Positions 19,906-39,844 of a stretch of DNA of 39,844 nt are shown piece by piece (the stretch's first letter is position 1; the number at the start of each line of letters is the position of its first letter). The stretch lies in the NCBI GenBank assembly GCA_024636855.1, contig JAGXGG010000011.1, positions 1-39,844 of the forward strand. The letters are read 5' to 3'. Source of the stretch: Ignavibacteriota bacterium. GTDB lineage: Bacteria > Bacteroidota > Ignavibacteria > Kapaibacteriales > UBA2268. A program made the translations under genes and the position numbers. Below the pieces are notes generated by a model. The model was not told the origin of the DNA, made no database searches, and saw only the letters and a program-made list of their open reading frames with translations.

Positions 19906-22089
19906 TCATTGTACTATTAATTTCTTAGACGTATTAATACCATCTAAATTGATATTTACTATATATATACCTTTAGCTAGCCCATTAGTAAATATTTTAT
20001 AGCCGATACTACTAGGGTTCAATCTTCCATTATAAATTGATTGTACTTTATTTCCAATTAAATCAATTAGCTCTATATTCGCATTTTGAACAGTATTCTT
20101 AATATTCATATTTAACTGAGAAAAACCATCAGTCGATGGATTAGGGTATAATTCCAAATCACCGACATAGTCTTCCAATTGAACTGATGTAATAACAGAA
20201 CTAAATGTATTATGAAGTACACTAACAGGATCAATTTCTACTTTAACTGGAAAGAAATCATTTTCTAAATAAAAAGTTTGATTCTTTTCTTTATTTACAA
20301 AAATTTCACTTAACTCATAATTCTTTTCATCTTTGTAAAGTTTGAATCTAACTGGAGTTGTGAATACTTTTGTGACATCAGGATTTGCAGCTGTATTTTG
20401 ATCTTGCATTTGAATCAAAGTCGCTCTTATTGCAAATTTATTATCTTCTAATATGTCAACTCTTGTATTTATATCATATTCTGGATATCCTGGGTTATAT
20501 ACCCATTGGTCGAAGAATGTATCAATATCAACTAGTGGGTTTTCTGCTTTCGATTCCCAAGCAGCTTTATACTCAGCTGTAGTTACAGATTGATATCTAA
20601 AATCTTCAAGTATTTCTTTCAACACTCTGAAGAACTGTTCATCGCCTAAATTGAGTCTCATTTGGTTATGTATAATCGAACCTTTATCATATATCAAATA
20701 TGCATTTGTATTAAAAAATGAACTTAGAGGAATTGCGTAAACGGGAATAGCTGAATTATCAGAGTTTCTCTTGAGTACTTCTCTAACCTGTCTTTCTATT
20801 ACATTTCTATAACTTTGCTCACCTTGCAAACTTTCTAAGTATATTGCTTCTGTATATGAAGCACCACCTTCGTTTATCCATATATCAGCCCATGTAGCAC
20901 AAGTCATAGAGTTACCAAACCAATGATGTCCCATTTCGTGAACAAATCCAGCATCTTGCTCGTCGTTTAACCAATACCTATTCTGAGTTACCATAGTTTG
21001 GTGTTCCATACCACCATAAGGGAATGGGAATACAGATACAGTTCCATAAGTAGCAAAAGGGTATGTTCCATAATTATCAACTAATATATCCATCATTCCT
21101 GGATGTGTTTCCATTGATTTTACAGCTGTGAAATAAATATCATCTCTATCTTCTGGCCAAAAATAATGAGTAGAAGGAATCGTATCGCCATTTTTAATAT
21201 ATGTCTGGTGTAAAGTATCAAAAACTGAAGCCGCAAAATTCATTAGATAAGTTGTGATTGGTTCATTGTTAACCCACTTCTGAATTTTAAAGTCACTAAC
21301 CCCATCATTCCTAACATATCTAGTGTCTAAAATTCCGTTTGATGCTGTTGTATATCCAAGAGGTACAGCCATTGTTATTGAGCTTTTAGCTTTATCATAA
21401 GGTCTATCATTACAAGGCATCCAATATCTGGCTAATTCAGGTTCAGACATAGAGTATGCGATATTATGTTCTACAATTACAGAATTTCCAAACCTATCCT
21501 TATTCCCTACATCATAGCCTTTGTGATATATATGCATACCTCGATTTCTCCAAAAGTCCTTATCGTCTTCTGCCTTACTATCGAAACCAATTAGTATTTC
21601 AACTATATCACCATTAGTATAATTTTTGTTAGAATAGAAATTTAATACTGCTATATTTATTGAAAACTTATCAAAGAGTGTATCAAGTTCATTTAAAGAA
21701 ATCGGAATTATATTATTAGATTCAATTAATAGAAGTGTTCTTATATTTAAATTTACTGCATCAAATTCAAAAGGTACATTTTCATCAGTTATTTTAAAAG
21801 TAATTTTATTATAACCTTTAAAGTATTTTCTAAAAAAAGTGTCTTCTTCCAAGTTAGAATTTAGTGCGGTTGATAAATCTAAATATAAATCATAATTAAG
21901 CACATCATAACTTCTTTTTTCTACATCACCATAGTCCTGTACTCTGTTATTCTTATGGTAGTGAGTACCCGATGTTGTATTCTCTGTATCGAATTGCTTT
22001 GTCTCTGCTCTAAGGTATTCTGGGAGTTCTTGTGAATAAGCATTGCCTATTGCAAATGCTAAAAATAAAAGTATTATTGGTTTAATCAT
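19906..22089 (-). CDS. M1-family aminopeptidase with T9SS sorting tail
   Basis: A 727-aa secreted zinc aminopeptidase. Signal peptide at 1-19 (AYSQ). The M1 substrate-binding GGMEH motif, a variant of GxMEN, is at 359-363, and the zinc site HEMGH at 384-388 with the third ligand Glu407 in WINEGGASY. The C-terminal 85 or so residues are a classic T9SS type A domain, starting near LELYPNPSTDG and ending in a G-x-Y-x-V-x-I strand and KKLIVQ. It should therefore be exported by Sec, cross the outer membrane by T9SS, and act outside the cell or on its surface in peptide breakdown. I start it at the ATG at 22087-22089, which has AAAGG about 10 nt upstream; the longer frame begins at a TTG. Confidence 0.9.
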   Translation of the reverse strand: MIKPIILLFLAFAIGNAYSQELPEYLRAETKQFDTENTTSGTHYHKNNRVQDYGDVEKRSYDVLNYDLYLDLSTALNSNLEEDTFFRKYFKGYNKITFKITDENVPFEFDAVNLNIRTLLLIESNNIIPISLNELDTLFDKFSINIAVLNFYSNKNYTNGDIVEILIGFDSKAEDDKDFWRNRGMHIYHKGYDVGNKDRFGNSVIVEHNIAYSMSEPELARYWMPCNDRPYDKAKSSITMAVPLGYTTASNGILDTRYVRNDGVSDFKIQKWVNNEPITTYLMNFAASVFDTLHQTYIKNGDTIPSTHYFWPEDRDDIYFTAVKSMETHPGMMDILVDNYGTYPFATYGTVSVFPFPYGGMEHQTMVTQNRYWLNDEQDAGFVHEMGHHWFGNSMTCATWADIWINEGGASYTEAIYLESLQGEQSYRNVIERQVREVLKRNSDNSAIPVYAIPLSSFFNTNAYLIYDKGSIIHNQMRLNLGDEQFFRVLKEILEDFRYQSVTTAEYKAAWESKAENPLVDIDTFFDQWVYNPGYPEYDINTRVDILEDNKFAIRATLIQMQDQNTAANPDVTKVFTTPVRFKLYKDEKNYELSEIFVNKEKNQTFYLENDFFPVKVEIDPVSVLHNTFSSVITSVQLEDYVGDLELYPNPSTDGFSQLNMNIKNTVQNANIELIDLIGNKVQSIYNGRLNPSSIGYKIFTNGLAKGIYIVNINLDGINTSKKLIVQ

Positions 22090-22169
22090 TATAATTGCCT
22101 TTTTAATATTATATTTGTCATTATATACGTTATACAAAGAAACATATTCTAACAAAAAAGTTACACAAG

Positions 22170-26662: not shown

Positions 26663-28150
26663 TTATAAAGCAGATTTAATAAATGTAAGCATACCACCTG
26701 GATTAAGGCCTATTATCAAGACCACTGCACTAGTAACGAATACAAGTATTCTCGATGCATTCCAAGGTAATGATTCACCTTTCACATCTTCTGTATCAGT
26801 GAAGTACATTTTTACAATCAATCCAATATAAAAGACAACTGAAATAATTGATGATACTACAGCAATCAATGCTAACCATAAATGTCCTGAATTAATAACA
26901 GACATAAATAAGTAGTACTTACCAAAGAAACCAGCCATAGGTGGAATCCCAGCCAATGAGAACATAAATAAAGCCATAATAGCAGCTAGAGCAGGTTGTC
27001 TTTTGCTCAAGCCAGCATAATCATCATATTCCAAATTCTTGTCTGTATCTCTTTCTAAGAGGCCAACAATGATAAAGGCACCAATTTGCATAAATGTATA
27101 TACAACAGCGTAGAACATCAATGCAGACCAACCAGCAGCAGTATTAGCTACAATACCCATTAACATATATCCTGCATGAGCTACTGAAGAGTATGCTAAC
27201 ATACGCTTCACGTTTTTCTGAACTAATGCTGTGATATTTCCTACTAACATAGTAAGGGCTGAAATAGCTGCGATTGCAGTGATTAATTTGTTTGTGTCTA
27301 TTGCTGATTCTAACCCACTAGGGTCAAAACCCATAGGAATAATTGTTTTAGCGATAATGATAAACGCAGATAAAGCAGCCGCTTTACCAGCAGTACTCAT
27401 AAAAGAAGTAACTATAGTGGGTGCTCCAGAATAAACGTCTGGTGCCCATTGGTGGAACGGGAAAGCAGAAGATTTGAAACTAAGTCCCATAATCATAAGA
27501 GCAGCCCCAAACATTAGGTAAGCGCTATTAGCACTTCCGTTAACTATTGCAGCAGTTATCTCTGGGAAGAACATACTTCCAGTACTACCGTATAACATAG
27601 CCATACCATATACTAGGAATCCCGTTGAGAATGCACCTAGTAAGAAATACTTTAATGATGCTTCTACTGATTGTGATGCAAATCTAAAATATCCTGCCAT
27701 TATGTAGAATGTAATAGACATCAACTCAATCCCAATAAACAATGTTAGTAGATGGTTAGAGTGAGCTATTACCATCATACCAGCTAGGGCATAAAGTACT
27801 AAGTTATAAAATTCATTCAATTCAGTTTTAACCGTATCTAAATAATTTCGTGCATTCAGTACTATAAGCAATGATCCGACACAAAATAGTAAATCGAAGA
27901 ATGCAGAAAATCCACCGAATGTCAACATATTAGAAGTTATAAGATTAGTATCGTCAAGATTTATACCTGATATATTCAGATAGAAATTATTCAATGCAAA
28001 TCCACCTACCGCAACTATACTTATTATAGATAGATAATAGCCACTGTTTTTGCTATTTGGATTTATTGCGTCTACCAAGATTGATATAACTGACATAATG
28101 CCAACTATAATCAAAGGTAAAAGTAAAATAAATTCTGAACTCATATTCAT
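26663..28150 (-). CDS. nuoN: NADH-quinone oxidoreductase subunit N
   Basis: A 495-aa antiporter-like membrane subunit of respiratory complex I, one of three proton-pumping modules in the inner membrane. About fourteen hydrophobic segments fill the protein. Typical features are GIELMSITFYIMAGY, the FKSSAFPFHQWAPDVYSGAP stretch with the conserved broken-helix region, and KRMLAYSSVAHAGYMLMG. Length is normal. It follows nuoM by 37 bp. The first ATG (28148-28150) is close to its GGAAAG; the second in-frame ATG at 28142-28144 is better spaced from that site and may be the true start. Confidence 0.96.
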   Translation of the reverse strand: MNMSSEFILLLPLIIVGIMSVISILVDAINPNSKNSGYYLSIISIVAVGGFALNNFYLNISGINLDDTNLITSNMLTFGGFSAFFDLLFCVGSLLIVLNARNYLDTVKTELNEFYNLVLYALAGMMVIAHSNHLLTLFIGIELMSITFYIMAGYFRFASQSVEASLKYFLLGAFSTGFLVYGMAMLYGSTGSMFFPEITAAIVNGSANSAYLMFGAALMIMGLSFKSSAFPFHQWAPDVYSGAPTIVTSFMSTAGKAAALSAFIIIAKTIIPMGFDPSGLESAIDTNKLITAIAAISALTMLVGNITALVQKNVKRMLAYSSVAHAGYMLMGIVANTAAGWSALMFYAVVYTFMQIGAFIIVGLLERDTDKNLEYDDYAGLSKRQPALAAIMALFMFSLAGIPPMAGFFGKYYLFMSVINSGHLWLALIAVVSSIISVVFYIGLIVKMYFTDTEDVKGESLPWNASRILVFVTSAVVLIIGLNPGGMLTFIKSAL

Positions 28151-28187
28151 CTTTCCGTATTTAAAGTAATTTTCTAATTATTTTCTG

Positions 28188-29744
28188 TTAGTTCTTTTTT
28201 GGTTCCATATTGATTGTTCCATTATTGAGATCTAACTCAACTTGTTCAATCTCTTTCACTAATTGCTTAGTCGAAGTTTCTGATTTACTCATGAATGTAT
28301 TAGGATAAACACCTAACCATACGATAAAGATGAGTAAAGGAACTAACATAGCCCATTCTGTTTTATTCAAATCTGATAGACCTTGATTTTCTTTGTTACT
28401 CAAAGCGCCAAACATAATTCTACCGAACATCCACAGTAAGTAACAAGCAGCGAAGATAACACCAGTTGTTGCTACTATTGCGTACCAAATATTATCAAGT
28501 ACTGTAGAAGTGAATGCTCCTAATAGTGTCAAGAACTCACCAATAAATCCATTTAGACCAGGTAGTCCAACAGAAGCAAACATTGCTATTCCAAAGAATA
28601 TAGTATAAACAGGCATTACTCTTGCTAAACCTCCAAATTCTGAGATTTCTCTAGTATGTCTTCTCTCATATATTACACCAACACAAATGAAGAGTGCTCC
28701 AGTAGATAAACCATGGTTTACCATTTGGATTATTGCACCTTGTATACCCATTTCATTCATAGCGAATATACCAAGAACAACGAATCCTAAGTGAGCTACT
28801 GATGAGTAAGCAATAATCTTTTTTACATCTGTTTGTACTAGTGCTACTAAAGCACCATATATAATACCTACTACTGCTAGGAAGGAAATAGTTCCAGCCC
28901 AATCAATAGAAGATACTGGGAATAATTCTAAGTTGAATCTAATAAGACCGTAAGTACCCATTTTTAGTAAAACACCAGCTAGTATAACTGAACCAGGAGT
29001 AGGTGCCATTGTATGTGCATCAGGCAACCAGGTATGTAATGGGAACAAAGGAACTTTTATCAAGAATGAAAGTGCAAATGCAATGAATAGCCAGTTTTGT
29101 ACATCTGGTGCTATAGCTGCACTGTGTTGCTTGATTAATAAGTAATCAGAAGTGAAGCCAGTAGGTAATGATAATACATCACCACCAACGTGAAGTCCTA
29201 ACCAAACAATAGCCACTAACATAAATAGTGAACCTACTATAGTATAGATAAAGAACTTTACTGCTGCATATATTCTGTCTTTACCACCCCAAATACCTAT
29301 AATAAAGTACATAGGAATAAGGATAATCTCCCAGAATATATAGAATAAAAATAAGTCTAACGAAATGAACACACCTAACATACCAAACTGCAACATTAAA
29401 AACATAAAGTAATACTCTTTATGTCTTTTATTAATTGAGTTGATAGATGAAAGTAGTGCAATAGGTGTCATGAAAGTTGTTAGCATTACCATTAGTAATG
29501 ACATTCCGTCCAAACCTACTCTGAAACCAGCATCAATGGCAGGAATCCAAGTAACATCCGTTACAAATTGAAATCCTTCTGCGTTACTATTGAAACTGAA
29601 ATACAATCCCAATGAAACTAAAAAAGCTACTATTGAAGTTCCCAAAGAGAACATTTCAATTAATTTTCTGTTATCCTTATTTAAGAAAAGTACACCGAAT
29701 GCACCAATCAAGGGGATTATTAAAGTTGCTATTAAAATAGTCAT
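28188..29744 (-). CDS. nuoM: NADH-quinone oxidoreductase subunit M
   Basis: A 518-aa antiporter-like subunit of complex I with about fourteen membrane segments. The key FYIFWEIILIPMYFIIGIWGG stretch carries the conserved glutamate of the proton path, and LIKVPLFPLHTWLPDAHTMA, with its lysine, marks the central broken helix. KKIIAYSSVAHLGFVVLG follows as in all family members. It lies 16 bp after nuoL and before nuoN, the standard L-M-N order. The C-terminus extends in a polar tail (ending EPKKN) of about 35 residues past the last helix. Confidence 0.96.
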   Translation of the reverse strand: MTILIATLIIPLIGAFGVLFLNKDNRKLIEMFSLGTSIVAFLVSLGLYFSFNSNAEGFQFVTDVTWIPAIDAGFRVGLDGMSLLMVMLTTFMTPIALLSSINSINKRHKEYYFMFLMLQFGMLGVFISLDLFLFYIFWEIILIPMYFIIGIWGGKDRIYAAVKFFIYTIVGSLFMLVAIVWLGLHVGGDVLSLPTGFTSDYLLIKQHSAAIAPDVQNWLFIAFALSFLIKVPLFPLHTWLPDAHTMAPTPGSVILAGVLLKMGTYGLIRFNLELFPVSSIDWAGTISFLAVVGIIYGALVALVQTDVKKIIAYSSVAHLGFVVLGIFAMNEMGIQGAIIQMVNHGLSTGALFICVGVIYERRHTREISEFGGLARVMPVYTIFFGIAMFASVGLPGLNGFIGEFLTLLGAFTSTVLDNIWYAIVATTGVIFAACYLLWMFGRIMFGALSNKENQGLSDLNKTEWAMLVPLLIFIVWLGVYPNTFMSKSETSTKQLVKEIEQVELDLNNGTINMEPKKN

Positions 29745-29760
29745 TTCTTCTCTATATTTT

Positions 29761-31725
29761 TTAGAATATCATGTAACCAATTAAAATTAAAATACCTAAC
29801 ATCATCACAGCAGCATAAGTTTGAGCAACACCAGATTGCAATCTTCTTACACCTTTACCTATAGCTGTTGTTAGGTTACCCGCGCCGTTTACTGCACCAT
29901 CTACTATATTCAAATCAAAGATTTTCCAAAGGAAATCACGAGATGTTATGAATATTGGAGTTACGAAAACTCCATAGTAGAAATTATCTAAATACCATTT
30001 ATTCCATAGTACTTTATAAGCAAAGCCAAAGTTTTTAGAAAGTGATTTTGCTTTAGTCCAATTTTCATCTTGCTTGTATATGCTTCTTGCTAATAGTATT
30101 GCTATAATAGCAACTACTGTAGATACAGCCATCAAAATATATTCAATTGCGTGAACATGATGCCCTTCAGCAACACCCAATATGTGGTCAGCTTGCGCAA
30201 ATACAGGAGATAGGAAGTTCTCAAGTAAATTCGGATGATCACTAAAGAAATATCCTAATGCGTAAGGAATACCAATGAAACCACCTAATGCAGATAGAAC
30301 TGCTAATACTATAAGTGGTACTGTCATAGATTTAGGTGATTCGTGCGGATGAACGTGATCTGCGTCAAATCTCTCTTTACCGTGGAATGTCAAATATAAT
30401 AATCTGAACATATAAAATGCTGTAAAGAAAGCAGCTACAGCCAATGTAATCCATAAGAACCAGCCACCACTAACATAAGATTTCCAAAGTATTTCATCTT
30501 TAGAGAAGAATCCACTAAAGAAAGGTATTCCAGATATTGCGATTGTACCAACTAGGAATGTTTTATAAGTAGTAGGCATGTGCTTTTTCAGACCACCCAT
30601 TTTCTTGATGTCTTGCTCTTCGTGCATACCATGTATCACAGAACCAGAACCCAGGAATAATAGACCTTTGAAAAAGGCGTGAGTCATAACGTGGAAAATT
30701 GCAGCAATCCAAGCACCAGAGCCAAGAGCCGCAAACATAAATCCTAATTGGCTGACAGTAGAGTATGCCAATACTTTTTTAATATCATTTTGTACAAGTC
30801 CAATGCTCGCTGCTAATAGTGCAGTAGCAGCCCCAATAATCGCAACTACCATCATAGCGTCAGGCGCAGAAGCGAATATAACTGAGTTTCTTGCTATTAG
30901 GAATATACCTGCTGTTACCATCGTAGCAGCGTGGATGAGTGCAGAAACTGATGTAGGTCCTGCCATGGCATCAGGAAGCCATCCAGCTAAAGGAATTTGT
31001 GCAGATTTACCTGTACAACCTAGGAATATAAGCAGTGCTATTGCAGTGATTAGACCAGTGTCATATAATGAAATATCACCAGCTACTATATTTGAAACTT
31101 CTATATACTCTAGAGTACCGAAGTTCATGTAAATCAAAAATATTGCAACTAACATTCCAAAGTCACCTATTCTATTCACAATGAATGCTTTGTTTGCTGC
31201 ATCACCAGTCCAAGTGATATGGAATCCATCAAATTTTCTATCGTACCAAAAACCAATAAGTAAATAAGAAGCTAAACCTACACCTTCCCAACCCAAGAAA
31301 GTAACTAAAAAGTTACTACCTAAAACAAGGTTAAGCATCATAAAAATGAACAAGTTAAGGTAAGCAAAGAAACGATAGAAACTCCTATCGCCGTGCATAT
31401 ATCCAATACTATATATATGTATCAGAGAACCGATACCAGTTATTATAAGCACAAATATTATTGATAATCTATCAACTTGATAAGCGAAATCTAGTGTGAA
31501 ATCACCAGCTCCGAACCAATTAAATAAATTGATTATATGTGGCTTGGCAGTAGTGTCACCAGCTAAATTGAAAAAAATTGAAAGAGCGATTAAAAAAGAT
31601 ATTGCAACTGTCGATGTTGCTATTATCCCTATTAGTTTTTCGCTCGCTATTTTTTTACCAAAAATCCCTAAGGTTAGAAACCCTAATAGTGGTAATAACG
31701 GTACGAACTTAATCAATTCAGGCAT
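29761..31725 (-). CDS. nuoL: NADH-quinone oxidoreductase subunit L
   Basis: A 654-aa antiporter-like subunit of complex I, the most distal pump, with the long lateral helix in its C-terminal part. The conserved glutamate is Glu147 in FLGWEGVGLASYLLIGFWYDR. The AQIPLAGWLPDAMAGPTSVSALIHAATM block and KKVLAYSTVSQLGFM are intact. It is the first gene of this transcript: nuoA-K do not precede it, and a 318-bp gap and a divergent gene lie upstream. The rest of complex I must lie elsewhere in the genome. Confidence 0.96.
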   Translation of the reverse strand: MPELIKFVPLLPLLGFLTLGIFGKKIASEKLIGIIATSTVAISFLIALSIFFNLAGDTTAKPHIINLFNWFGAGDFTLDFAYQVDRLSIIFVLIITGIGSLIHIYSIGYMHGDRSFYRFFAYLNLFIFMMLNLVLGSNFLVTFLGWEGVGLASYLLIGFWYDRKFDGFHITWTGDAANKAFIVNRIGDFGMLVAIFLIYMNFGTLEYIEVSNIVAGDISLYDTGLITAIALLIFLGCTGKSAQIPLAGWLPDAMAGPTSVSALIHAATMVTAGIFLIARNSVIFASAPDAMMVVAIIGAATALLAASIGLVQNDIKKVLAYSTVSQLGFMFAALGSGAWIAAIFHVMTHAFFKGLLFLGSGSVIHGMHEEQDIKKMGGLKKHMPTTYKTFLVGTIAISGIPFFSGFFSKDEILWKSYVSGGWFLWITLAVAAFFTAFYMFRLLYLTFHGKERFDADHVHPHESPKSMTVPLIVLAVLSALGGFIGIPYALGYFFSDHPNLLENFLSPVFAQADHILGVAEGHHVHAIEYILMAVSTVVAIIAILLARSIYKQDENWTKAKSLSKNFGFAYKVLWNKWYLDNFYYGVFVTPIFITSRDFLWKIFDLNIVDGAVNGAGNLTTAIGKGVRRLQSGVAQTYAAVMMLGILILIGYMIF

Positions 31726-32043: not shown

Positions 32044-34197
32044 ATGAAAGCTATATACAATTTTTTATTAATTTCTCTTATACTCACATTTTGTAGTATA
32101 AATGCTGATGGTGCTGTAGATGAACAAGAAGTCAAGGATAAACTTTCTTTACTAATGGGCCAAAATAACTCAGGGACTGATTATTGGTTCACTATTCCAC
32201 CAGTATATATGGATGAAAGTGCTGGATTTGATAATTCATTAAAAATTCTAATTGCCTCACCTGTAGAAACAGAAGTGACAGTTGAAGTAAAAGGTAAAGG
32301 GTACTTACAAACACAAAAGACTATACCAGATAATGTTATAGAGTTTAGTATAAACCCCAATATAGCACAAGTAATTCTACATAGTGGTATGCGAGATGGT
32401 GCAGTTCCTGCAAAAGTTTATAAGGAAGCTGGGATTCATGTAACTTCTGAAGCACCAATAGTTGTATATGTAATTGCAAGGTATAAATATACTTCAGATG
32501 GTTTTCTTGCGATTCCTTCTTCTGCATTAGGAACACATTATATTAATATGGTTTATCAAGAACCTAATATTAGTAACAATGGACTATTCGCACCATTTAC
32601 TGGAGTTACAGCCGCTTATGACAATACTGAAATTAACTTCACAATGGGTGGAGGTCCAGAAGGAATAGACGCATCTCCTATGGAAAATGGTCAATTAGTA
32701 CACACAGGCGAATCAACTAGTCAGACTTTGAATCAAGGTGATGTTTGGTTGCTTTCTATAAATGGGCCAAGACAAGATTTATCTGGAAGTATTTTCAAAT
32801 CCGATAAACCAATATCTGTCGTATCAGGTATCAACTGTGCTAATTTCCCATTAGGGAATGCATGGTGCGATTATACGGTTGAAATGGAATTACCTGTTTA
32901 TTCGTGGGGGAAACAATACTATGTCACTCCTATGAATGGAAGAATTTATAATGGTATAATCAGAATTTTCGCTTCAGAAGATAATACAAATGTTTATAGA
33001 GATAATGAATTAATTGGAAATATTGCAAAAGGTGGAGGTGCTACTATTGGTGTAGGTTATATAGAAACGAGAGTTTGGCCGAAAGTAGATGAAAATGGTA
33101 ATCCTATTGTTCCACATATTGCAACTATTCATTCGGACAAACCAATTGCTGTAATGTATTATAATACAGGTGGACAAGAAGACAATGGTAATACACAAAA
33201 CACCGACCCATTTATGATGACCTTCACTCCTGTAGAGCAATTTGGAAATCAGATTTATTTTGCTTCTCCTAACTCTGCAACTGGAACTAATTTATTTCCA
33301 GAAAATTATGTTAACATTATTTTTGAGTCCACTTCAAATGAAATTCCAGATGATTTACTTTTTGCAGATTTGTCTAAACCCACTCCTACTTGGGTTAAAG
33401 TGAAAGATTACTTTGGACCTTCATTCGAAAATTTTGTTGTACCTTTTAATGGTAGATTATTTGCAAATAAAACTCTGAAGTTAGCAAATGAAGGTGTATT
33501 TGGTTTGAAATCAACAACTACTGCGATTGGTGCTTACTCTTATGGCTTTGGTCCTTATGATTCTTATGGTTATCCTACTGCTGCTACTTTCGATGATTTA
33601 GTTGCAAACGACGGGAAAGCACCAGAAGTAACATTCTCTGGAGCTAAAGATGCCGATATAATCACTGGTAGTGTAGATGACTCGCATAGTGGATCATCTG
33701 GACTTTCACAATTCTATATGCTTGAGTCGATGAGTACAAATTATTCCTTTGAAATAACTTCTGTTGATAAAGGAATAACTACTAACTCAAAGCAAGAACC
33801 TACCTTCATACCTGGCCAAACTAAGAAACTTAATTGGACTTTAGAAAAAATAGACAAGAACAAAGAAGGATATGCTGTACTTTACTTATCTGATAGATCT
33901 GGCAATGATGAGTTGTTATTCTTTGGAAATACATTAACTGCTACTTCTGTTACTCCAGAACAAACTCTATCTGAATATATGACAGTTACTGAATCAAACA
34001 TTCAGATTTTACCACAAACAATGGCTGATGGATTTACCGAGCTTTCTATGTTTAGTCTAGATGGCAGTAAAGTAATAAGTGCTAACATACAGAATCAAAA
34101 CTCTGTTGCTATTACAAGTCTCAAATCAGGGACTTACATAATAACACTGAAAAGTGAGAGTAGATTACTCACAAGAAAGATAAATATAGTGAAGTAA
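32044..34197 (+). CDS. IgGFc-binding-type secreted protein with T9SS tail, copy 1
   Basis: A 717-aa exported protein, first of three tandem paralogues. Signal peptide at 1-22. Residues of about 38-500 match the bacterial IgGFc-binding N-terminal-type domain: an early DYWFTIPP motif, then KGKGYLQTQ, SEAPIVVYVIARY and a paired-cysteine region with CANFP and CDYTVEMELP, followed by WGKQYYVTP. Here the family's binding partner is unknown, and IgG binding should not be assumed. The last 83 residues form a T9SS-like tail ending RLLTRKINIVK, but with ILPQTMADG where PNP is usual. Unlike copies 2 and 3 it lacks two extra beta repeats before the tail. AGGAG at 32032-32036 supports the start. Confidence 0.78.
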   Translation: MKAIYNFLLISLILTFCSINADGAVDEQEVKDKLSLLMGQNNSGTDYWFTIPPVYMDESAGFDNSLKILIASPVETEVTVEVKGKGYLQTQKTIPDNVIEFSINPNIAQVILHSGMRDGAVPAKVYKEAGIHVTSEAPIVVYVIARYKYTSDGFLAIPSSALGTHYINMVYQEPNISNNGLFAPFTGVTAAYDNTEINFTMGGGPEGIDASPMENGQLVHTGESTSQTLNQGDVWLLSINGPRQDLSGSIFKSDKPISVVSGINCANFPLGNAWCDYTVEMELPVYSWGKQYYVTPMNGRIYNGIIRIFASEDNTNVYRDNELIGNIAKGGGATIGVGYIETRVWPKVDENGNPIVPHIATIHSDKPIAVMYYNTGGQEDNGNTQNTDPFMMTFTPVEQFGNQIYFASPNSATGTNLFPENYVNIIFESTSNEIPDDLLFADLSKPTPTWVKVKDYFGPSFENFVVPFNGRLFANKTLKLANEGVFGLKSTTTAIGAYSYGFGPYDSYGYPTAATFDDLVANDGKAPEVTFSGAKDADIITGSVDDSHSGSSGLSQFYMLESMSTNYSFEITSVDKGITTNSKQEPTFIPGQTKKLNWTLEKIDKNKEGYAVLYLSDRSGNDELLFFGNTLTATSVTPEQTLSEYMTVTESNIQILPQTMADGFTELSMFSLDGSKVISANIQNQNSVAITSLKSGTYIITLKSESRLLTRKINIVK

Positions 34198-34275
34198 CGA
34201 TTATTCAAATAAAAAACCCGATTAGGAATAATAATTGGGTTTTATTATATTTACAACTAAAAAACAGGAATAACC
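34198..34275 (+). repeat. Duplicated spacer, copy 1
   Basis: The 78-bp spacer after array copy 1 is nearly the same as the 79-bp spacer after copy 2 (37162-37240), including the hairpin and the AACAGGAAT ribosome-binding region. The similarity extends both into the preceding tail and into the following signal-peptide codons. Confidence 0.9.
34213..34243 (+). terminator. Terminator-like hairpin between array copies 1 and 2
   Basis: An 11-bp stem with one G-U pair (34213-34223 with 34233-34243, 9-nt loop) ends in TTTT and ATTATAT. It lies 15 bp after the stop of copy 1, in the 78-bp spacer. Its T-run is short, so read-through into copy 2 is plausible. Confidence 0.7.
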
Positions 34276-37161
34276 ATGAAATTTTTAACCACATCTAGCA
34301 TTATTCTAATTCTTACATTTTCATCTTTGTTCTCGGGAATAGACGTAGAAGAAGTCAAAGAAAAACTAGCATTAATCCAAAATTCAGGAAATTCAGGTAA
34401 AGAATTTTTGTTTACTATTCCACCAATCTACGAGGAAGAAAGTGCAGGATTTGATAATTTTGTTAAAATTCTAGTTACGAGCACATTTAGCACAGATGTT
34501 ATTGTTGAGGTGCCTGGTATAGGATTCTACAAAAATAGTAAAACTATTGAAAATGGAGTAATTGAATTCGAATTGTCTCCTACCGTTGCTCAACCAATAT
34601 TACATTCAGGTAGAACCGATAAAGCTAGACCTGCGAGAGTTTACAAAGATGCTGCCATTAGAGTATATTCAAAATCACCAGTAATCGTTTACGTTGTTGC
34701 TAAGTTTAAAAATAACTCCGATGGTTTTTTTGCAACCCCAACGAAATATTTTGGTACAAAATATATAAATTCTGTTTATCAAGAGCCAGCTTTATGGGAG
34801 AGTGGGTGGTTCAATCCATTTACAGCTGTTGTAGCTGCTTATGATAATACAAAAATAGATTTCACAATGGGAGGTGGGGCTGAAGGTAATGATGCTGTAC
34901 CGTTTGAAGATGGTAGTTTAATAACAACTGGTAAATCAAAAAGTACCATTATGTCTAAAGGTGATGTCTTGTTACTTTCTATCAACGGTCAAAAGCAAGA
35001 TTTATCAGGTAGTTTGTTCGAAGGGAATAAGCCATTTGCAATAGTATCTGGTATGCATTGTGCTAGATTTCCTTTGGATATTGGATCATGCGACTATGCA
35101 GTCAATATGGAATTGCCTACTAAAAATTGGGGCAGGACTCATTTCGTTACTCCACAGATGGATAGAGCATTCAACGGCATTGTTAGAATTTATGCTTCTG
35201 AACCAAATACAGATATCTATAGAAGTGGTGCTTATATAGGTACATTAGAGAAGGGTGGAGGAGGCTCAATAGGTGAATCATATCTCGAGTTAAGAGTTTG
35301 GCCTAAATTTGTTAATGAAGATGTAAGAGGGGTACCAAAAGTAGCTACTTTTACTTCTACAAAGCCCACAGCAATAGTATATTACAACACAAGTAGTGTA
35401 GAAGACAATGATTACATCTCAGGTATGACTAGAGACCCTTTTATGGCACTAATTCCACCTATAGAAGCTGCGGTAAATAATGCAATTGTCTATTCTCCTA
35501 ATGCTTTAGGAGCATCAGTTCCATTCACTGAGAATTATGTTAGAATTACATTTCCGTTAGTTAATGATAAAATACCTGATGATTTATTAGTCGCAGAGCT
35601 TTCAACAGAAATTACTAATCCTAAGTATAAGAAATTAAGTCAGCAATTTGATACTAATCACTATCAGTTTAATGTTAAATACGAAGGCAAAACTTATGGA
35701 TCAAAAGTAATAAGTGTAGGCTCTGAAGGTGTATATTCATTCAAATCAGATAGCTCGAAGTTTATTGTAGAATCTTTTGGAGCAAGCAGTTATGAGACTT
35801 ATGGTTTTCCAACTGCCTTTTCTTTAAATGATTATTCTAAACCTGATAGTATAGCACCTCATTTCTCATTTACTCAACAGTGTAATGGAGATATATTGAA
35901 GGATGGAGGTACTGTTACAGATTTCCCTGAAGATGATACCGCTCGTTCTAACATGGCTGAAATATTTGTTGTTGCAAAAGAGAATTATCTTTTTGATTGG
36001 AGGAGAACTGAAAATTATGATTTCATACCCGGTGAACAAAGGGAATTAAAGTGGTGGCTTACTGTAATTGATAAATCAAAGCCGGCTTCTGCATTAATAT
36101 ATTTTAGTGATATGGCAGGGAATGACACTACGATTTTCATAGAATATACTCTTCCTATTTATGAAATGGAAGTGCTATCATCTGTTAATGAGTTATTTAA
36201 TCCAAAATTGAATACCATTTATTTTCAAGATACAATCCGAAATTTATCTTCGACAATGACATTAAATATTACGAGAGTTGAAATACCTAATCAAAACTCG
36301 CCTTTCAAAATAACTTCTTTTGAAGATAATTGGTTACCAGGTACTCCTATTCCTCCTCTCGAAGAAAGATATATAAATATTACTTTTCAAAAAGATGAAA
36401 TAAAAAATAATAATACATATTCAGATTCTTTGTTTATCGGACTTGGTTACGAGGACGATGGAGAGATAAGTGAATGTAAATTTATCTCGATTTCGGAGCT
36501 CAAAACTTCAGTATACTTCCCTGTTTACAGCTTAAGATATGGAAATTATTTTGGTGAATTTAATGAAAATAGTAAGCCAAAAAAATTAACAGAAACAATC
36601 CGAAATTTATCTACAAATGCACCTCTTTATATATCTAGGTTAGAGTTCAAACATGGAGATAAAGGTTTCAGCTTAGGAGTATTTACTCCATTTAGTTGGG
36701 ATATAACTAAACCAATTGCTCCTAATTCTGAAGTTGTTGTTGACATTATATTTAATCCTAAATCAGTTGAACAAGGAGATGAAGATATAGAATTGACTGA
36801 TTCATTAGGTATTGGTATATCAGTAATGAATGTAAATAATGAGTTAGAAGAATTAGAATTTAACTTTAAAACTCAGCAGAAAGCGATATTAAAAGCAAAA
36901 GATCTTACATCAGTTACCCCAGAGCAAACTCTATCTGAGTATATGACAGTTACGGAGTCGAGCATTGAGATATTATCACAGGCTTTAGCTGAAGGATTTA
37001 CCGAGCTTTCTATATTCAACTTAGATGGCAGTAAAGTAATTAGTACTGACATACAGAACAAAAACTCAATTGCAATCAGTGGCCTTAATTCAGGGACTTA
37101 CATCGTAACGTTGAAAAGTGAGAGTAGATTACTCACAAAAAAGATAAATATTGTGAAGTAA
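34276..37161 (+). CDS. IgGFc-binding-type secreted protein with T9SS tail, copy 2
   Basis: A 961-aa paralogue of copy 1. Signal peptide at about 1-20, then DVEEVKEKLALIQNSGNSGK and the IgGFc-binding-type domain (about 30-500), with its cysteine pair in CARFP and CDYAVNMELP. A following beta region contains a second cysteine (QQCNGD). Two tandem repeats lie at about 640-720 and 770-875. Each begins with an RNLS motif and continues through a strand like LYISRLEF or LNITRVEI to a late DSL motif; they resemble ASPM-SPD2-Hydin or choice-of-anchor beta domains. The 83-residue tail is close to that of copy 1. AGGAA at 34266-34270 precedes the ATG. Likely exported through T9SS as an adhesin- or surface-layer-like protein; that role is inference. 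Confidence 0.78.
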   Translation: MKFLTTSSIILILTFSSLFSGIDVEEVKEKLALIQNSGNSGKEFLFTIPPIYEEESAGFDNFVKILVTSTFSTDVIVEVPGIGFYKNSKTIENGVIEFELSPTVAQPILHSGRTDKARPARVYKDAAIRVYSKSPVIVYVVAKFKNNSDGFFATPTKYFGTKYINSVYQEPALWESGWFNPFTAVVAAYDNTKIDFTMGGGAEGNDAVPFEDGSLITTGKSKSTIMSKGDVLLLSINGQKQDLSGSLFEGNKPFAIVSGMHCARFPLDIGSCDYAVNMELPTKNWGRTHFVTPQMDRAFNGIVRIYASEPNTDIYRSGAYIGTLEKGGGGSIGESYLELRVWPKFVNEDVRGVPKVATFTSTKPTAIVYYNTSSVEDNDYISGMTRDPFMALIPPIEAAVNNAIVYSPNALGASVPFTENYVRITFPLVNDKIPDDLLVAELSTEITNPKYKKLSQQFDTNHYQFNVKYEGKTYGSKVISVGSEGVYSFKSDSSKFIVESFGASSYETYGFPTAFSLNDYSKPDSIAPHFSFTQQCNGDILKDGGTVTDFPEDDTARSNMAEIFVVAKENYLFDWRRTENYDFIPGEQRELKWWLTVIDKSKPASALIYFSDMAGNDTTIFIEYTLPIYEMEVLSSVNELFNPKLNTIYFQDTIRNLSSTMTLNITRVEIPNQNSPFKITSFEDNWLPGTPIPPLEERYINITFQKDEIKNNNTYSDSLFIGLGYEDDGEISECKFISISELKTSVYFPVYSLRYGNYFGEFNENSKPKKLTETIRNLSTNAPLYISRLEFKHGDKGFSLGVFTPFSWDITKPIAPNSEVVVDIIFNPKSVEQGDEDIELTDSLGIGISVMNVNNELEELEFNFKTQQKAILKAKDLTSVTPEQTLSEYMTVTESSIEILSQALAEGFTELSIFNLDGSKVISTDIQNKNSIAISGLNSGTYIVTLKSESRLLTKKINIVK

Positions 37162-37240
37162 CGATTATTCAAATAATAAAACCGATTAGGAATAATATTC
37201 GGGTTTTATTATATTTACAACTAAAAAAACAGGAATGACC
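37162..37240 (+). repeat. Duplicated spacer, copy 2
   Basis: Matches 34198-34275 with a handful of substitutions and single-base indels. Together the two mark the unit of tandem duplication: one gene plus one spacer. Confidence 0.9.
37178..37207 (+). terminator. Degenerate terminator-like hairpin between copies 2 and 3
   Basis: The counterpart of the hairpin after copy 1, in a duplicated 79-bp spacer. Arms AAAACCGA and TCGGGTTTT pair with one bulged G, so it is weaker than its partner. Confidence 0.5.
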
Positions 37241-39844
37241 ATGAAATTTTTAACCACATCTTGCATTATACTATTACTTACTTTTTCTTCACTTTTATCT
37301 GGAATTGATGTTGAAGAAGTCAAAGATAAACTTAATCTAATACAAAATAATGGGAATTCTGGAAATGATTTCTGGTTTACTATACCCCCGTGTTACGAAG
37401 AGACAACGGGAAATAATTTTATAAAAATATTAGTTACTAGTACTTTCGAAACGCAAATAACAGTTGATATCCCAGGAAATGGTTTTTATAGAAGTAGGAA
37501 AACCGTAGCAAATGGTGTAGTTGAATTTGCGATAAAACCTGTAGAAGCTCAAGCTTTTCTACATCAAGCAAGAACTAATAAAACACCACCAGCTAATGTT
37601 TATAAAGGGGCAGGAATACATGTCACTTCTGAAAAACCTGTATTAGTTTACGTGGTAGTTAAATATAGAGCTACTTCAGATGGATTCTTTGCCATTCCTA
37701 CGAAATACTTTGGAACAGAGTATATTAATATGGTATATCAGGAACCAAATTTTAAACTTTATTATAATTATAGCGGACTTGCATCACCATTTACAGGGAT
37801 AACTGCAGCTTATGATAATACAGAAGTAAAATTTACGATGGGTGGTGGACCTAATCGTGATGATCAAGTAGAACTTAAAGGTGGAGAACTACTCTCTACT
37901 GGACAATCAACTATAATAAAATTGAATAAAGGAGATGTTTGGATAGCGGGGGTTCATGATGTTGAACAAGATTTATCAGGTAGCTTAATAACTGGAAATA
38001 AACCTTTTTCAATTGTCTCGGGTGTGCATTGTGCTAATTTCCCAGTTGGGAATTTCTGGTGTGACTATTCTGTTAATATGGAATCACCTATTGACAAATG
38101 GGGAAAGAATTACTTTATAACACCTCAAATGGAAAGAGGATACAATGGAATTGTTAGAATATTTGCTTCCGAACCTAATACAACAATTAAAAGAAATGGA
38201 ATTACTATTGGTAATTTGAAAGATGGTGGAGGCTCTGGGTTTGGTGATTCATATTTAGAAATGCGACTTTGGCCAAAGTATGATACTTCAGGAGATTCTA
38301 TTACACCAAAGTTAGCTCATATTAGTGCCGATAAACCAATTGCTATCACTTATTATAATACTGGTACACAAGAAGATGGGGTTGGTGGTAAGAGTGATCC
38401 GTTTATGTCTCAAATTCCTCCAATAGAGGCCGCTGTCAATAATACTTTAGTATCTTCTCCTAACGCTTTAGAAGGAGGAGATATTTTTACTGAAAATTAT
38501 CTTAGAATTACCTTCCCGCTTGTCAACAATGAAATTCCTGATGATTTATTATTTGCCGAATTATCTACATCTGGTGTAGCACCAAAATACTTCAAAATTA
38601 AAGAAATTTTTGGTGCAAGTTTCGATGCGTTTGAAATTGGATATGAAGGTAAATCTTACGCTTCTATGAAACTAACTTTAGGAACTGAAGGTTCTTATTC
38701 AATCAAATCAGATTCTTCAAAATTTGTAACTGAATCATTTGGTTTTAGTCCTTATGAATCTTATGGTTTTCCAACTTCATTCAATTTAAATCTTCAAAAT
38801 TCCAAAGACAAGTTAGCTCCTATTATTACTTTTATTCAACAATGTAATGGTGATATATTAATGGACGACGGGTTAGTGACTGATCTACCAAATGATGATG
38901 AAATAAGATCCAATTTAGCCGAAATCTATATGTTAGAATCTGAGAACTATGAATTTGCATTGAATTCGAATGGAAATGAGTTTATTCCAGGTCAGAATGC
39001 TTCCTTTAATTGGGAGCTTATAGTTATTGATAAATCGAAACCAGCTTCTGCTCTATTATTTGCTTCTGATATGGCAGGTAACGAATCAACTATGCTGATA
39101 AACTATGTTAATACAGAAATGGAAGCAACTTCTTCAAATCACTTTTTACAAAATCCTAAATTGAAGGAAATCTCATTTCAAGATACACTTAGAAATTTAT
39201 CGAATAGCAAACCAATTTATTTAAGTCGAATTGAGCTAGCTAGCGAAAATAAAGACTTTAAGATAGTATCAATCGAGCCTAGTAATTGGGACATGAGTAT
39301 GCCATTACTACCAAATTCTGAAGTATATGTAAATATCAAATTCGCTAAATTCAAAATTAGTAATACAGATATATACAGAGACACATTGTATGTAGGCCTG
39401 GGCTCAGAAAAAGATGGCAAAATAGTAGAATGCCAGTATTACCCAATTGCTAATTATAGCGTAACTGCTGATTATCCAAATTATAAACTAGAAAGAAGCA
39501 ATTATTATGGTGAATTTACTCCATCATCGAAACCAATAAAACAACAAGGAACTATTAGTAATTTATCTGAGACATCTCCCTTGTATATTTCTAGATTAGA
39601 GTTAAAAGATGGGGGCAAAGGCTTTAGCTTGGGTGGGTTTTTACCTTTTGATTGGGATTTGTCTAAACCAATAGCTCACAATGAAGAAGTTTTAGTAGAT
39701 ATAATATTCAATCCTAAATCAGTTGAACAAGGAGAAGAAGATATTGAATTAACTGATTCATTAGGTATTGGTATATCAGTGATGAATGCTAATAATGAGT
39801 TAGAAGAATTAGAGTTCAGTTATAAAACAGAGCAGAAAGCTATA
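37241..39844 (+). CDS. IgGFc-binding-type secreted protein, copy 3 (cut by window edge)
   Basis: The third paralogue is open for 868 codons with no stop and runs off the right edge, so it is partial rather than broken. Signal peptide region MKFLTTSCIILLLTF leads into GIDVEEVKDKLNLIQNNGNS. The IgGFc-binding-type domain has DFWFTIPP, SEKPVLVYVVVKY and the cysteine pair in CANFP and CDYSVNMESP. Two RNLS/SNLS-type beta repeats follow at about 645-735 and 765-868, matching copy 2 in place and order; the second is nearly identical to it. A T9SS tail like that of the other two probably follows outside the window. AGGAA at 37231-37235 precedes the ATG. Confidence 0.78.
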   Translation, partial: MKFLTTSCIILLLTFSSLLSGIDVEEVKDKLNLIQNNGNSGNDFWFTIPPCYEETTGNNFIKILVTSTFETQITVDIPGNGFYRSRKTVANGVVEFAIKPVEAQAFLHQARTNKTPPANVYKGAGIHVTSEKPVLVYVVVKYRATSDGFFAIPTKYFGTEYINMVYQEPNFKLYYNYSGLASPFTGITAAYDNTEVKFTMGGGPNRDDQVELKGGELLSTGQSTIIKLNKGDVWIAGVHDVEQDLSGSLITGNKPFSIVSGVHCANFPVGNFWCDYSVNMESPIDKWGKNYFITPQMERGYNGIVRIFASEPNTTIKRNGITIGNLKDGGGSGFGDSYLEMRLWPKYDTSGDSITPKLAHISADKPIAITYYNTGTQEDGVGGKSDPFMSQIPPIEAAVNNTLVSSPNALEGGDIFTENYLRITFPLVNNEIPDDLLFAELSTSGVAPKYFKIKEIFGASFDAFEIGYEGKSYASMKLTLGTEGSYSIKSDSSKFVTESFGFSPYESYGFPTSFNLNLQNSKDKLAPIITFIQQCNGDILMDDGLVTDLPNDDEIRSNLAEIYMLESENYEFALNSNGNEFIPGQNASFNWELIVIDKSKPASALLFASDMAGNESTMLINYVNTEMEATSSNHFLQNPKLKEISFQDTLRNLSNSKPIYLSRIELASENKDFKIVSIEPSNWDMSMPLLPNSEVYVNIKFAKFKISNTDIYRDTLYVGLGSEKDGKIVECQYYPIANYSVTADYPNYKLERSNYYGEFTPSSKPIKQQGTISNLSETSPLYISRLELKDGGKGFSLGGFLPFDWDLSKPIAHNEEVLVDIIFNPKSVEQGEEDIELTDSLGIGISVMNANNELEELEFSYKTEQKAI

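Follow-up and report, generated by a model that had tools for sequence, protein, structure and literature searches.

A tandem array of PF17517 T9SS-type proteins in an Ignavibacteriota bacterium with divergent bodies and probably recombining sorting tails

The window analysed is a stretch of 39 844 nucleotides that makes up one whole contig (C15) of the 110-contig draft genome of a groundwater-type Ignavibacteriota bacterium. At its right end three open reading frames, two complete and the third open, lie head to tail on the + strand and encode a row of related, putatively exported proteins with far-diverged bodies (pairwise protein identity 45–58%). They are separated by spacers of 78 nt (copies 1/2) and 73 nt (copies 2/3), and the following features were assigned.

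26663..31725, − strand: nuoN, nuoM and nuoL, the left flank of the array, divergent from copy 1 (92–97% amino-acid identity in the three other genomes of the genus)
32044..34197, + strand: copy 1 (c1), 717 amino acids; signal peptide, PF17517 body, Ig-like module, T9SS tail
32497..33402, + strand: PF17517 domain of copy 1 (profile match)
32836..32868, + strand: conserved cysteine pair of copy 1 (C265–C275, C-x9-C)
33943..34194, + strand: T9SS sorting tail of copy 1 (TSVTPEQTL...KINIVK; TIGR04183)
33942..34241, + strand: repeat block (tail, stop and spacer start), first copy, 84% identical to 36906–37205
34213..34243, + strand: hairpin followed by a T-rich stretch in spacer 1, terminator-like (z −3.06)
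34276..37161, + strand: copy 2 (c2), 961 amino acids; layout of copy 1 plus two ASH/PapD-like domains preceding the tail
34723..35595, + strand: PF17517 domain of copy 2 (cysteine pair 262/272 at 35059–35091)
36160..36891, + strand: two ASH/PapD-like beta-sandwich domains of copy 2 (residues 629–872; structure match, weak PF22073)
36907..37158, + strand: T9SS sorting tail of copy 2 (80% identity with the copy 1 tail)
36906..37205, + strand: repeat block (tail, stop and spacer start), second copy, 84% identical to 33942–34241
37162..37234, + strand: spacer 2 (weaker hairpin at about 37173–37212, z −2.71)
37235..39844, + strand: copy 3 (c3), 870+ amino acids, open at the contig end (alternative start 37241)
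37682..38512, + strand: PF17517 domain of copy 3 (cysteine pair 266/276 at 38030–38062)

A first-pass annotation of this DNA had described three large paralogous proteins in tandem, and the profile search that it proposed was significant in every copy: PF17517 (IgGFc_binding) matched copies 1–3 with E values of 1.3e-45, 1.1e-30 and 2e-37 and scores of 156.4, 107.4 and 129.5 bits, respectively (curated cut-off 25.6 bits). Like the PF17517 proteins of Ignavibacteriota/Bacteroidota, all three copies are matched across most of the domain, although they cover only about positions 1–264 of 297. The cysteine-pair region described earlier is indeed common to copies 1–3, where it reads CANFPLGNAWCDY, CARFPLDIGSCDY and CANFPVGNFWCDY, respectively; the C-x9-C pair is also found in a clade-wide PF17517 ortholog and is absent from the c4 and d-type paralogs. 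The DYWFTIPP-like opening is likewise conserved, less exactly than had been claimed (DYWFTIPP, EFLFTIPP and DFWFTIPP).

Copies 2 and 3 differ from other PF17517 proteins of Ignavibacteriota/Bacteroidota in the addition of two ASH/PapD-like domains, which copy 1 lacks. The best structural match of the pair in copy 2 was the CEP192 SPD-2 domain 7ptb (Z 10.7 over both domains, with an r.m.s.d. of 12.6 that reflects a different relative pose of the two), and their PF22073 match was below the cut-off; in copy 3 these domains, of the CEP192/HYDIN type, are seen by alignment only. The predicted model of copy 1 is mostly beta and of moderate quality (pLDDT 71). Sequence searches of the PDB returned no PF17517 match and weak tail matches only, and comparison of the PF17517 body of copy 1 with solved structures gave no usable match (Foldseek TM-scores of about 0.1, in a comparison that barely covered the body). 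The best viral structural match of this body was FirrV-1-C4 from a brown-algal virus (E 9e-9, TM 0.30–0.38), possibly a distant PF17517 relative, with a match too weak to use.

The T9SS-like tails reported for the first two copies scored above the TIGR04183 cut-off of 23 bits (27.9 bits for copy 1 and 37.2 bits for copy 2); with PF18962, copy 1 fell slightly below the cut-off (25.8 versus 27) and copy 2 above it. Residues 633–716 of the copy 1 model matched the RgpB C-terminal domain 5ag8 best (Z 7.2, 1.9 Å over 64 residues), which is a middling Z score yet the top row and the expected fold. In both the profile score over the cut-off and this best match the tails resemble those of T9SS type A substrates (TIGR04183/PF18962, e.g. 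RgpB). The genome encodes SprA (TIGR04189, 770 bits, cut-off 200) and at least 150 T9SS tails (TIGR04183). Export by the T9SS is well supported because the tail profile, the structural match to the RgpB sorting domain and the SprA gene are all present, and the copies can with near certainty be taken as members of PF17517 and putative T9SS substrates. Elsewhere in the window, at 19906–22155, is a gene for an M1-family peptidase that also bears a T9SS sorting tail.

The spacers had been described as duplicated, and the duplication proved to extend to their flanks, into the preceding tail and the following signal peptide: besides the 84% identity of the two repeat blocks, 34259–34436 is 78% identical to 37224–37401. 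The other T9SS tails of the genome are at most 44% identical to the array tail; in contrast to them, the array tail and its spacer are homogenized between adjoining genes.

The locus was compared across four genomes of the genus, namely that of the window (G0 or G000) and three others (G1–G3 or G001–G003), all of which are fragmented drafts of 110–450 contigs and at least two of which are metagenome assemblies. Position 39844 is a contig end, and copy 3, correctly noted as cut before its end, stops about six codons short of the expected tail start. Since the window is an entire contig, the cut is due to the assembly and not to decay; the stop that was to mark copy 3 as decayed does not occur as far as the frame can be read. 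Its ortholog in the sister species G1 (L058:1120-3285, − strand, contig C246), 74% identical, reads through to a complete T9SS tail, and a fourth copy (c4) lies downstream of it. Given the contig end and this complete ortholog, copy 3 is probably intact. Reading beyond 39844, as the annotation advised, yielded the tail and further copy from G1 and no continuation from the genome itself, in which the last 201 bases of copy 3 match solely this contig, a tail of the copy 1/2 type occurs in copies 1 and 2 only, c4 is absent from the contigs and a search for mauG returned only paralogs of 34–37% identity. The right flank was located on C21, a contig that begins shortly before clpS, so that C15 and C21 bracket a gap in which the c3 tail, mauG and c4, if present, would be expected.

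In all four genomes copy 1 adjoins nuoL divergently. On the right side of the array G1, G2 and G3 carry mauG, then clpS and then an M48-type peptidase (the latter two were named from sequence, not by profile search), and the flanks nuoL...mauG–clpS are fixed in these three. Copy 1 has a single ortholog in each of them (82–87% amino-acid identity) and a dN/dS of about 0.06–0.08, indicating purifying selection. In G1 the copies are split between two contigs, one with c1 and c2 and one with c3 and c4, the order across contigs being deduced; in G2, c1 is followed directly by c4, without c2 and c3, and the junction falls in the tail. A crossover between the tails of c1 and c3, with loss of c2 and c3, would produce the arrangement of G2; this direction of change is assigned by parsimony only. 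Copy 1 is the stable, constrained member of the array and the inner copies turn over. Compared with copy 2 of the window, that of G1 (L093:2971-4608) appears to have an in-frame gap of about 45 residues within the PF17517 domain. The right flank of G2 contains a 2085-residue protein (L094:2998-9255) with an eCIS_core match (PF13699, E 6e-11) that is not found at this place in G1 or G3.

The tails and the bodies gave different measures of relatedness: in all four genomes the array tails resemble one another much more closely than the bodies do. In the three array pairs compared within the genus the tails are 79–99% identical at the amino-acid level versus 33–48% for the bodies (tail minus body +33, +51 and +60 points), and the tail dS is 0.02–0.72, the dS of the bodies being near saturation and thus imprecise. 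The tails of copies 1 and 3 of G1 are identical in amino-acid sequence (97.6% at the nucleotide level, dS 0.11), with bodies that are 45% identical (dS about 2). Within single contigs, the tails of copies 1 and 4 of G2 are 93% identical in nucleotides (dS 0.24; bodies 29% in amino acids), those of copies 1 and 2 of G0 are 83% identical in nucleotides (dS 0.72; bodies 45%, dS 1.34) and a tail end in G3 matches the copy 4 tail at 117 of 119 nucleotides. For comparison, the tail-minus-body difference averaged −11 points (s.d. 13, maximum +19) in 27 control pairs of tandem PF17517 genes from other genera and was −18 in another tandem pair of the genome of the window, on contig C97. The AU test rejected the body tree on the tails (p 4e-109) and the tail tree on the bodies (p 5e-77). 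The near-identical-tail pattern is strongest in G1–G3 and is weaker and older in the array of the window; the homogenization of its tails is old (dS 0.72), which makes recombination less obvious there than in the relatives. A 1543-residue protein on contig C107 of the same genome (L023:3907-8538), with orthologs in G1–G3, has a body 54–56% identical to those of copies 1 and 3 but an unrelated C-terminal end, and it has further ASH-type domains; the same body is thus joined to another tail.

Against a background in which the copy 1 bodies of G1 and G2 differ at 20% of bases, these two genomes share a tract of about 400 bases that is 99–100% identical and has sharp edges, running from the tail (that of c3 in G1 and of c1 in G2) through the spacer to the start of c4; for the tail plus spacer, G2 c1 and G1 c3 are 99.6–100% identical. 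A second tract shared by G1 and G2, of about 700 bases, leads from the c4 tail into mauG, where the nearby background is 87–88%. Assembly breaks also fall at tails: at the end of the window, between contigs C66 and C75 of G3 (a 46 bp overlap inside the tail, within the stretch matching at 117 of 119 nucleotides) and at C316 of G1. On C75 of G3 (L154) the c4 tail is short of about 45 bases and no longer in frame, next to the boundary of a tract shared identically with the adjoining tail; failed recombination and assembly error are both possible origins of this lesion.

PF17517 was found in all 60 relatives of the order searched (one to 25 matches each) but in only 46 of 198 genomes across the phylum. 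The genome of the window has 14 matches, or 13 genes if two adjacent matches on contig C83 represent one split gene, and genomes of this order generally carry several PF17517 genes, often in tandem. A tandem array of PF17517 proteins exported by the T9SS is therefore ordinary here, the family being universal and often tandem in the order and the genome encoding SprA and its many sorting tails; what is unusual is the separate histories of bodies and tails. The clade-wide ortholog mentioned above, of about 790 residues (L098, L099 and L102 in relatives; C83:4977-5851, L017, in G0), appears from its sequence to end in an outer-membrane beta-barrel-like region, with no T9SS tail, and its copy on C83 is split into two frames by a frameshift or an assembly error. 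The literature searched contained no experiment or functional study on bacterial PF17517 proteins, and the two papers in it that mention the family or its accession do not concern bacterial members.

We regard it as probable that the locus is a T9SS PF17517 array in which each gene keeps its own divergent body and the shared tail and spacer have been repeatedly homogenized by homologous recombination; recombination at the tails, taken alone, is a still safer proposition and is very probable. Read from sequence, this account consists of tail and body trees that are incompatible, recent exchange tracts at tails within the genus and copy-number differences between species within fixed flanks. Each protein would cross the inner membrane by means of its signal peptide, leave the cell through the T9SS by its tail, be cleaved by the sortase and remain at or close to the cell surface as a beta-sandwich protein of adhesive or matrix-like character. 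Such an adhesin or matrix role is the likeliest for beta-sandwich T9SS cargo, and we give it an even chance. Because the tails are the sole stretches that are still alike, crossing-over or gene conversion there would delete, add or swap whole bodies and leave a working export signal. More tentatively, the tail plus spacer may be a maintained recombination module or hot spot at which bodies are added, dropped and exchanged within the array and between species, although we consider this rather unlikely; it would amount to a cassette-type exchange of surface proteins that always lands on a working T9SS signal with no dedicated recombinase.

Ordinary tandem duplication, with tails alike merely through the amino-acid constraint of the T9SS, would require no recombination, and the C-terminal domains of T9SS substrates do have a common fold and motifs, TIGR04183 being matched at least 150 times in this genome. 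However, the tails are alike at synonymous sites (dS 0.02–0.24 in G1/G2) where the bodies are near saturation, the other tails of the genome reach no more than 44% identity to the array tail, in the 27 other tandem pairs the average similarity of the tails is below that of the bodies, and the spacer DNA past the stop codon is homogenized too. Recombination rather than constraint alone is indicated since both synonymous sites and non-coding spacer are affected; constraint in its pure form is rejected by the dS values and the tandem-pair controls, and we judge this explanation very improbable. Only slightly less improbable is an origin of the tail identities, and of those between G1 and G2 in particular, in faulty assembly or binning of fragmented metagenomes. 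The G1 contigs are short (3.3–12.9 kb) and of low coverage by record title, contig ends coincide with tails, and the near-identity between the species G1 and G2 could in part have such an origin; yet the pattern is seen on single contigs in G0 (c1/c2), G2 (c1/c4) and G3 (tail end/c4), cases that are independent of the G1–G2 comparison, and one false join fails to explain the G1–G2 tract because the sequences on both sides of it differ between the two genomes.

The first-pass annotation saw in the tandem expansion a surface system under diversification. The family, the T9SS tails and the tandem paralogy stand; tandem arrangement is usual here, however, copy 1 is under purifying selection and the dynamism lies in the inner copies and the tails. 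A diversification system proper, i.e. antigenic or phase variation with real-time exchange of bodies to escape predators, phages or host defence, would account for a constant tail on a variable body, for copy-number change between species and for inter-species exchange tracts, but copy 1 is constrained and syntenic in all four genomes and the remaining annotated genes of the window include no recombinase, and we hold this to be improbable. The Pfam name and the significant PF17517 match might suggest binding to the immunoglobulin Fc or mucin of an animal host, which is extremely improbable: the family is universal in the order, and the nearest named relative, Ignavibacteriae HGW-Ignavibacteriae-4, is a genome from an environmental metagenome without any link to a host. 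The term 'IgGFc-binding' stems from the mammalian mucus protein FCGBP and implies nothing about IgG in an environmental bacterium; immunoglobulin binding was rejected.

Genomes with a T9SS encode very many secreted proteins that have only the sorting tail in common. Should the tails act as homology arms, the export signal would itself be a route to reshaped surface repertoires, by which surface proteins may be gained, lost or swapped with the signal unbroken. Recombination at the tails of this array would be seen here in a clean, bounded example, in which the flanks are fixed, the first gene is stable, the inner genes are exchangeable and the tracts are precise. Copy numbers of such arrays are probably underestimated, as they appear to break short-read assemblies. 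The locus also draws attention to bacterial PF17517 proteins, universal and multi-copy in this order.

The closest documented parallel is the hagA–kgp recombination of P. gingivalis, which the locus appears to resemble in an unrelated protein family. There, kgp has been lost by in-frame deletion between adjoining T9SS genes, and the authors ascribed the deletions to homologous recombination at repeats that include virtually identical 3' ends (PMC9328147); domain exchange in surface proteins of P. gingivalis has also been described (PMC5266723). Both loci have adjoining genes for T9SS substrates with near-identical 3' ends and divergent upstream parts. They differ in that the common part of hagA–kgp includes large adhesin repeats, whereas that of the Ignavibacteriota array is a tail of about 84 codons and the spacer only, and in that the array holds several intact paralogous bodies in one row. 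For hagA–kgp the deletions themselves were observed, whereas the array presents a copy-number difference between species only, G2 being without c2 and c3.
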